Shown here: one piece after another, positions 61,321 through 64,000 of the stretch
How the letters are laid out: every line of letters begins with the position of its first letter
Numbering within the stretch: position 1 is the first letter of the stretch
Source of the DNA: Albugo candida
Taxonomy: Eukaryota; Oomycota; Peronosporomycetes; Albuginales; Albuginaceae
Direction: 5' to 3'
Length of the DNA stretch: 64,000 nucleotides
Assembly: GCA_905220665.1 (NCBI GenBank)
Contig: CAJNAR010000168.1
Span: forward strand, 62,001 to 126,000
Made by a program: the position numbers and the translations under genes
Notes under the pieces: model-generated
What the model was told of the DNA's origin: nothing
The model's database searches: none
Seen by the model: only the letters and a program-made list of their open reading frames with translations

Positions 61321-64000
61321 ATGGCTCCTGTAAATGAGATACTGCAAAGCAGTACAAGCACCATTCCACGATATCCAATTCCTGTGTCTGTGGACTTTGG
61401 AACGATAATGCATTCGGTTCCCTCACATAACAATGAGTTTTCGATTGAAGAAGATATAACGTATTCACAGGAAATGCTGCATGATCTATCCGTGCAAGAA
61501 ACCCAAGCTCATGTGTACCTGGAGTTGGACCAAGAATTCACAAAAATACTGAATGATGATGAATTGAACAACATGATCCAACTCAATATGACTACAATAC
61601 CTCTTTCTGATGTCTCAAGTCCCGTTGTGATCGGTCGTGACAAGTTTAAAGTCGTTTTTGGCGAGCAAATTCGAAAAGCGTCGACTTCACTGCTGAGTCG
61701 GAAGCATTGCTTATTTCATGTGAGTAAAATGGGTGGGAACGGTCCTTCGGGGTATTCTGTTTCCGTCGAAAATACCAGTACCAATGGAATTGAGGTCAAT
61801 GGCGAACCCGTTCCTCGAGGAAGGACGAAATCGCTCGCTTGTGGAGATGCTGTGACATTGCTCCGTCTTCCGCAAAGTCAGGTCGGTCTATCATCTCACC
61901 TTGTGGATCCACATAGCTCAACTGCGCACTTAGGCATTATCGAATCTTGCGATACGCTACACTTTATTTGACGAATCATCACCTGATCCGATCTACAATC
62001 ATCATGTTGGAAGGCTCCTTGTCGATGAAATTAGCGTGACCAGTGAAAATCAAGACAATATGGTGATTACTGAGGATGAACGACATGCTCAAAATGTGTC
62101 TTTAGTCCAACAAACAAACTCGGGAGAATCATTTCGATGTGTAAGTGCGTTCCATTGAAAGTCAATTACTTTGACTGAACGCGTTTGTAGTCGGTGATGC
62201 TTGCACATTCGATATTGACAGATACGACAGACACAAAGGTGAGCCAACGATTTGAGATGCGGAATTTGACTCACAACACGCCTGCTCCAGTTTAGCGATT
62301 TCAGAGATGAACTTCATTTGATGCTCTCCCCAATTCTTTCGCACGGCTATATACAAGTATGCAAATGTCCAAGTTATTATGTTACATCACCATTCACCAC
62401 AACTATACAGGTCGATTACGATACAGCAACGGAGACAGCATTGGAAAAAGCTGTGCAAACGACAGATTTAGTGATATTGGCTGAAAGTACGAGTACCTCA
62501 CAAATGCAACAGATGCAAGGAATGACTTATAATCCACTAGTAAAGCACTCGTTGGATCGACGTGGAATTATTCTGGTGAACGAAAATGGACTTCCGGAAA
62601 CTCTCGAGAATACAAAGCTCAGAGAAATATGCCAAGGTATGGCAGCATACACGTTTAGTACGCCAAGTGACACACCTTCCTCATTCGGTCATTTATAGCG
62701 GCAGCACTGTCCAAACTTATCGTCGTTTTGTCGGAAGACTCTTCATGTGGTATGTTGGCATCGTATTTTCTCGAAATCATATTGAGACTCAGACGCCATA
62801 CAGCAAAATCTCTTTTCGCTTGTGGAATTCCTCGTGTCATTTACGCGACTTCAAAGAACAAATACAGGCGACAAGTCGGTACTTTTATCCGGTACGAAAA
62901 TGGCAAGTACTTTGGGCAACCCTTTCTGACCATACGCTTATCAGAATACTTATCGGTGGAATACTTCATGAATTCTCAATGAAGATGTGTTTTGAAAACG
63001 CTAAAAGTATGGCCTTCGAAGATTCAAAAACCAAAGACCAAAGTTTCGATCAAGTTGAGCTCTTCTCGACATTCAACGACCATACTGCCGTCCAAACCGA
63101 AGCAAAACAATTCAACACAAAGTGGGAAACCATCGTAAAACAGAACTTTGTCAGCCTGAGCTCCTTCGTACTTCCCGATCCACCCGAACGTCTCGTTGAT
63201 CGTAATCAGGAGATCGCCGAGGTATTTTTTCCCACCTTCTGCCTCCAACTTTGTTGTATTCACCGTCTTACTACAGATTGTCAACTTTATAAGAACAAGT
63301 CCAGCTCGAGTGTGCAACTTGCATGGCCAGGAAGGTATCGGGAAGTCGACTATAGCTATTCACGTGGCGAAATACATCAGTCGGATGGTACGTTGCTCTC
63401 AAAGCATTCAGTATATATCACTTGGAGATTACGAGCGGAATATTCTCACCGAACAAGACGTCACCAATGTGGAGGCCACGTACGATTTCAATGTCGCGCT
63501 ATTGAATCAGCTTCACAGCGACATTGAGGAGCTCAATACAGCCGTCAAGATGTGCGTTGTTGACTCCTATTTCCGCACAACTAAAGTCGAATGTACTGGC
63601 CGTTAGGGACGACTCGAGCTCGAGACTATTGATTCTCGATGGCTGTGATTTCTATGCGGAAGCTCCAATTTGTGATTTTGTATCAGAGATCCTGCGTCAG
63701 TTTCCGAGCATGAAAGTGAGTATTCGACACAACCAGTAACTTTATTCACTCTTTTGTATGCTTTAGATCATAACAACGTCAAGAAACAAGCTGCCGATCA
63801 CCTCACAGACTTTAGCGAATGTCACCATAGGTTTGGAAATTCATTCTCTTACTGAAGAAAGCGCTGCAAAACTACTGATTGCATACTGCGAGGAGCCAAT
63901 CGTCCGAAACAAATTGAAGAAATGTAAGTGGAATTTCACATTGCGTGCTTTCGACATCTCCGTATTCATTGTTGATTGCAGCATCCGCGGACTGGCAATC
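61321..64000 (+). CDS. FHA - TIR-like - NB-ARC (STAND) protein, 3' end outside window
   Basis: Exons 61321-61881, 61934-62140, 62191-62238, 62291-62356, 62411-62636, 62699-62891, 62945-63221, 63277-63551, 63607-63715, 63767-63923, 63982 onward. All introns are 50-62 nt with GT-AG ends, and phases agree; about 712 residues are visible. The FHA domain (about 105-195) has VVIGRDK, LLSRKHCLFHV and ENTSTNGIEVNG. A region at about 257-430 resembles TIR folds: DTTDTKFSDFRDELHLML, then ALEKAVQTTDLVILAES, then SKLIVVLSEDSS. An NB-ARC core follows, with Walker A HGQEGIGKST (about 543-552), Walker B LLILDGCD (about 626), RNBS-B-like IITTSRNKLP and the EIHSLTEESAAKLL block. Such proteins are ATP/ADP-switched sensors; the ligand-sensing C-terminal repeats would be beyond the window. 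The TIR assignment is tentative. Confidence 0.8.

Follow-up and report, generated by a model that had tools for sequence, protein, structure and literature searches.

The end of a 64,000-nucleotide stretch of the genome of Albugo candida, a water mould that parasitises plants, referred to here as the window (positions 1–64000), carries a gene that overruns the window by 121 bases and encodes an FHA domain, a CHAT-like middle region and a STAND-type ATPase in a single chain. Sequence homology makes this gene a divergent paralog of the FHA-CHAT-NACHT proteins of oomycetes; it appears to be a disarmed relative of a so far undescribed protease switch that oomycetes share. The interpretation that we favour, and which we regard as somewhat probable, is that its FHA domain, pseudo-CHAT domain and minimal STAND ATPase form a non-cutting subunit that would tune an assembly of active FHA-CHAT-NACHT proteins. 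An earlier note, made from the letters of the window alone, had described an NLR-like protein with an FHA domain, a TIR-like region and an NB-ARC core and had called this architecture unfamiliar. An FHA domain ahead of a STAND- or NLR-type ATPase is indeed what this oomycete gene encodes, but the arrangement is not unique to it.

Many oomycetes have FHA-CHAT-NACHT proteins in which the protease motifs are intact, and the same order is found in the ortholog from A. laibachii. In UniRef they are named FHA domain-containing or hypothetical proteins (e.g. P0004 and P0018), and they, too, end soon after the GxP motif. They keep, however, both the His/Cys motifs and a cluster of SQ/TQ dipeptides, whereas the window gene lacks the former altogether and the latter for the most part. 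The A. candida copy lies on contig C144, and a search seeded with it brought up 51 proteins with E values of at most 1 among the candidates scored, including named proteins of Albugo, Phytophthora, Pythium, Globisporangium, Nothophytophthora, Peronospora, Peronosclerospora, Hyaloperonospora and Thraustotheca. Seeding with the window gene or with its A. laibachii ortholog yielded only these two orthologs and one further match at E 7.4. Since all these searches scored the approximately 8,000 candidates sharing most five-residue words, the list of family members counts as a minimum, and an unrecognised ortholog may exist elsewhere. In both Albugo species, an intact-motif protein and a motif-less paralog coexist, and in BLAST alignments the FHA domain, CHAT-like region and ATPase of the window protein are collinear with the active family.

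The middle region and its catalytic sites

Homology and fold comparison identify the middle region as a degenerate, caspase-like CHAT domain rather than a TIR domain. Proteins of the active family carry the catalytic His in the motif xLHxSGHG and the catalytic Cys in xVSAC, and a solved SAVED-CHAT chain (8tl0) aligns with these relatives at both sites (GHG and NAC). In the window protein, BLAST and MAFFT both place Ser501 at the His site, with Ser also in A. laibachii, while pairing the strand LVILAEST with LHLSGHG by eye gives Ser480, which is Val in A. laibachii. At the Cys site, BLAST places Glu542, again shared with A. laibachii, and MAFFT leaves a gap. No version of the alignment puts a conserved His or Cys at either catalytic place, and the domain is apparently catalytically dead.

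Several observations speak against this assignment. The alignment near the catalytic sites is uncertain, with programs and eye disagreeing. His500 of A. candida directly adjoins the aligned His site, but is Ser in A. laibachii; Cys546, four residues past the aligned Cys site, is conserved in both Albugo species, and BLAST pairs it with another Cys further along the Thraustotheca protein. The Pfam CHAT profile does not match the window protein. The AlphaFold model was built from an alignment of 41 sequences that included active CHAT relatives, and its CHAT part reaches only low to middling confidence (pLDDT 35–79 in blocks of ten). Moreover, the top Foldseek match was the TIR-NLR RPP1, aligned over 525 columns at an rmsd of 17.9.

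This last match, together with strands that alternate with helices in the low to middling-confidence model of the middle region, would fit a TIR-NLR carrying an extra FHA domain. Yet RPP1 superimposes poorly, also in a second fold comparison where it appeared at row 12 with an rmsd of 13.4, and the TIR profile has no match in the window protein or in the public A. candida (P0001) and A. laibachii (P0002) records at E up to 10. We reject the TIR domain that the earlier note had suggested for this CHAT-like region, and a TIR-NLR is largely refuted and highly improbable. A BRCT domain behind the FHA domain, as in NBS1, was weighed by eye only and dropped once the CHAT paralogs had been found; no BRCT is among the Pfam matches. 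Elsewhere in the A. candida genome, a TIR match of 31 bits, above the cut-off, lies in a 1127-residue open frame (G000:C28:186683-186904).

FHA reader, ATPase core and divergence from the active family

The conserved motifs GR, SxxH and NG form the phosphothreonine site of FHA domains. They are kept in 39 of the 40 proteins checked (the exception being P0039), and in the window protein they appear as GRD, LSRKHC and STNG. The FHA profile (PF00498) scores 27.2 bits in the first splice model against a cut-off of 20.7, with 26.9 bits in P0001 and 27.4 in P0002, so this part of the earlier note was correct. Its suggestion of gating by phosphorylation seems plausible as well, with a phosphopeptide reader and a STAND ATPase joined in one protein; the part in innate immunity or cell death that it also raised would be a candidate function.

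The C-terminal part is, by its motifs, a minimal NACHT/NB-ARC-type STAND ATPase, with Walker A, Walker B, a sensor-like strand, helices and a helix bearing GxP. Among the STAND-type profiles NACHT scores highest, with 24.8 bits under the cut-off of 26.7, which the A. laibachii protein just passes with 26.9. The P-loop, Walker B, sensor and helices that the earlier note had read as a complete NB-ARC core are present, but a full NB-ARC domain has to be rejected, because the chain stops directly after GxP; the PF00931 score is 19.1 bits against a cut-off of 23.5. A classical NLR layout is not supported, as both winged helix and repeats are absent. In fold comparison, the modelled NTPase comes close to Apaf-1, CED-4 and plant resistosomes; many AAA+ proteins match at similar Z, so that the fold by itself is no specific sign of an NLR. 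In six-frame searches of the A. candida genome, PF00931 found nothing exon by exon, whereas NACHT found 26 places; the window gene was not among these, presumably because introns split its domain. Another A. candida frame (L009, G000:C150:987691) encodes an NPHP3_N-type STAND NTPase (67.7 bits).

An SQ/TQ cluster domain is defined by at least three SQ/TQ dipeptides in 100 residues, and Rad53 is grouped with Chk2 as a system that joins such a cluster to an FHA domain. We counted these dipeptides in a stretch of up to 100 residues ahead of the FHA domain, assessed significance by shuffling and omitted proteins without a usable FHA domain (P0006, P0039 and P0043–P0054). At least three were present in all 38 family rows outside the window pair; in the most distant row, Thraustotheca, five were found, a number reached in 0 of 2000 shuffles. 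A. candida also has FAT-domain genes on four contigs, which may include ATM/ATR.

Comparing the two Albugo species domain by domain, identity in the CHAT part drops from 89% for the C144 pair to 64% for the window pair (95% interval of the difference −0.32 to −0.17), while FHA identity is 73% and 78%, respectively, with an interval spanning 0. This pattern suggests that it is chiefly the protease of the window gene that has come under weaker constraint, with the FHA reader retained. The lost protease motifs and the faster divergence of CHAT would also suit a gene decaying toward loss. We consider this unlikely, however, as the frame is open across 14 exons, the Walker and FHA motifs are retained in two species, and the last 857 residues of the corrected protein differ from the other A. 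candida record, P0001, at 2 positions (496 and 740 of P0001).

The comparison with the family also yields points that count against our interpretation. NACHT identity is lower in the window pair as well (73% versus 80%, interval −0.152 to −0.002). A motif pattern fails to show both protease motifs in 6 of the 51 family proteins: P0040 has neither, P0054 shows no GHG, P0046 has Tyr for Cys, and P0052 and P0053 start inside the domain; P0051, also missed by the pattern, has both on closer look. The shuffle fraction is below 0.05 in 32 of the 38 rows outside the window pair, which are interrelated (the C144 protein being nearly identical to P0004), and far from this level in the window pair. Finally, only two SQ/TQ dipeptides precede the FHA domain in the window protein and one in the A. 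laibachii ortholog, which is no more than chance, so the window paralog may not itself carry a phosphorylation trigger.

What we rank as the main rival is that the window protein has left the protease pathway and acts as a stand-alone signalling scaffold or ATPase, which its FHA domain would bring to phosphorylated partners and in which the CHAT fold would serve only structure or binding. The largely missing SQ/TQ cluster fits this reading, and so do the great length of the branch between the window pair and the active family (saturated, at about nine changes per column) and the numbers of coding introns, i.e. 2 in the C144 model and 13 in the window gene, although intron positions were not formally compared. 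On the other hand, all three parts are still collinear with the active family and both genes are present in two species; we consider such a scaffold rather improbable. Trees with 22 and 16 rows do not date the duplication because the window branch is saturated: in the AU test, a clade of the window pair with the Albugo active genes stays compatible (p-AU 0.118), as does a clade that unites the 12 oomycete rows of the active kind and leaves the window pair outside (p-AU 0.389).

The wider family is varied. Four more CHAT-NACHT copies, by eye near-identical to the C144 gene, lie in the A. candida genome at L024 (G000:C194), L025 (C178), L026 (C156) and L027 (C81). With no FHA core visible in frames of 80 residues or more, they look like recent FHA-less duplicates; GHG and Cys motifs are present in the first three, the C81 frame is without the GHG part, and the C194, C178 and C81 copies sit behind long repetitive coding-like units. 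P0043 combines SH2 (40.7 bits), NACHT (38.4) and CHAT (36.9), all above cut-off, with a STAT linker match of 23.7 under the cut-off of 27; P0044 is a CHAT-NACHT protein that aligns with P0043 across the SH2/STAT-linker part without a listed SH2 match. A phosphopeptide reader may therefore have fused with CHAT-STAND on more than one occasion, as FHA and, in P0043, as SH2. More distant relatives combine CHAT with SAM or leucine-rich repeats (LRR), among them P0046 (1365 residues, jgi), an LRR-CHAT protein which, with Tyr at the catalytic Cys position, is a candidate dead CHAT.

Gene model and neighbourhood

In the corrected splice model, 14 coding exons encode 894 residues (table 1). All 13 introns are GT–AG, 50–62 nt long and consistent in phase. 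The earlier note had joined eleven exons; short exons, consistent phase and a single chain stood up, while the number of exons and the start did not. The first splice model, starting at 61321, already matched the public A. candida protein ABG067_000845 (P0001) at 96% over its full length, and the exon-joined protein is likewise present in both Albugo records. The start is better placed at 60728, with two extra 5' exons, because the 893-residue A. laibachii protein has the same N-terminus; P0001 begins 37 residues later. The splice of exon 9 was chosen after comparison with P0001 and P0002.

Table 1. Exons and motifs of the window gene; positions are those of the window.
Feature	Position	Strand	Content
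Exon 1 (aa 1–129)	60728..61114	+	Basic KRRR near start; low pLDDT; N-terminus matches P0002
Exon 2 (aa 130–152)	61169..61237	+	In both P0001 and P0002
Exon 3 (aa 153–347)	61297..61881	+	Most of FHA, preceded by SQ aa 209 (61465) and TQ aa 221 (61501)
Pfam FHA match within exon 3	61621-61857	+	
Exon 4 (aa 348–416)	61934..62140	+	Final FHA strand, then linker
Exon 5	62191..62238	+	CHAT-like domain begins
Exon 6	62291..62356	+	CHAT-like domain
Exon 7	62411..62636	+	CHAT-like domain; site of catalytic His; Ser501 at 62549-62551, Ser480 at 62486-62488
Exon 8	62699..62749	+	Strand VVLSED versus FVSAC of relatives; site of catalytic Cys aligned with Glu542 (62734-62736)
Exon 9	62804..62891	+	CHAT-like domain, motif CGIPRVI
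Exon 10	62945..63221	+	CHAT-like domain to about 63098, linker, NTPase from 63177
Exon 11	63277..63551	+	Walker A GQEGIGKST (63325-63351)
Exon 12	63607..63715	+	Walker B LLILDGCD (63626-63649)
Exon 13	63767..63923	+	Sensor-like strand IITTSR plus helices
Exon 14	63982..64121 (to 64000 in window; end = G000:C166:126121)	+	GxP motif RGNPSLL, then stop

The stop codon (64119-64121) directly follows the GxP helix, where the A. laibachii protein is longer by 9 residues. A convergent COX24-like gene on the opposite strand, whose frame begins about 170 bases beyond, leaves little room for repeats, and the LRR, WD40 or TPR repeats that the earlier note had proposed to look for past 64000 are absent from the C-terminus. 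A classical NLR with repeats beyond the window end is rejected accordingly. Rfam at its gathering threshold has no match in the window, NCBIfam gives two weak, unrelated-looking matches far under their cut-offs, and in a PDB sequence search with the whole protein CHFR was the sole match (E 0.99). Upstream lie a gene for the Gpi16/PIG-T subunit of the GPI transamidase (57327-59183, 326.5 bits) and, on the same strand as the window gene, a sulfotransferase-domain frame (59389-60075, 34.5 bits) that may run on in another frame to about 60583.

Relation to known systems and a possible role

CHAT-bearing NLRs are known from fungi, where they occur near gasdermin genes (PMC10197012, PMC9815663), and like the window protein they tie a caspase-like CHAT domain to a STAND NTPase. 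According to the accessible text of these papers, which contains no occurrence of FHA, they often bear ANK, TPR or WD40; the window protein differs in its FHA domain in front, the absence of repeats and the loss of the protease motifs. FHA is named, in the accessible part of PMC8195603, among the effector domains of bacterial STAND systems and is thus tied to STAND NTPases as here, although these systems are bacterial and CHAT is not named in that part. With the SAVED-CHAT protease (8tl0) the CHAT fold is shared, but its sensor is SAVED and the window gene lacks both catalytic residues. PMC2939053 deals with oomycete LRR receptors and with fungal NACHT; in the open PMC literature, we found no description of the oomycete FHA-CHAT-NACHT family or of its disarmed paralog.

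Two further systems offer functional parallels. c-FLIP(L) is a pseudo-caspase paralog of caspase-8 in which His and Cys are replaced and whose heterodimer with caspase-8 has been demonstrated (PMC7586951); the window protein, too, is apparently an inactive paralog in which other residues stand in for the His/Cys dyad, and it accompanies a counterpart of the active family. c-FLIP(L), however, has death-effector domains instead of FHA and STAND, and for the window protein such a heterodimer is hypothetical. In Chk2, ATM phosphorylates SQ/TQ sites that are then bound by the FHA domain of a second molecule (PMC4296918). Chk2 and the active paralogs share the SQ/TQ cluster ahead of the FHA domain, but the output of Chk2 is a kinase, whereas that of the active paralogs would be a protease plus a STAND ATPase.

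For the non-cutting subunit that we favour, a mechanism can be sketched along these lines. The FHA domain would read a phosphothreonine mark, possibly the SQ/TQ cluster of the active paralog once phosphorylated by ATM/ATR-type kinases; the STAND module, driven by ATP, would assemble chains and so bring CHAT domains together; and active copies in this assembly would cut substrates. The window protein could enter the same assembly without cutting and limit or tune the cutting, like c-FLIP(L) with caspase-8. A bolder version, which we put forward only tentatively, is an oomycete single-chain cell-fate switch fired by ATM/ATR-type kinases, in which an SQ/TQ-FHA sensor of the Chk2 type would be combined with a caspase-like CHAT protease and with a STAND ATPase of the apoptosome type, and the dead window paralog that evolved in Albugo would act as a FLIP-like brake.

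To our knowledge, oomycetes are a group in which regulated cell death is poorly understood. The conserved chain of phosphopeptide reader, caspase-like protease and STAND ATPase is a concrete candidate for such a process, and the disarmed paralog provides a natural built-in control for studying regulation of the active protein. If the proposed switch is real, phospho-signalling of the DNA-damage type would be linked directly to a caspase-like output within one polypeptide.
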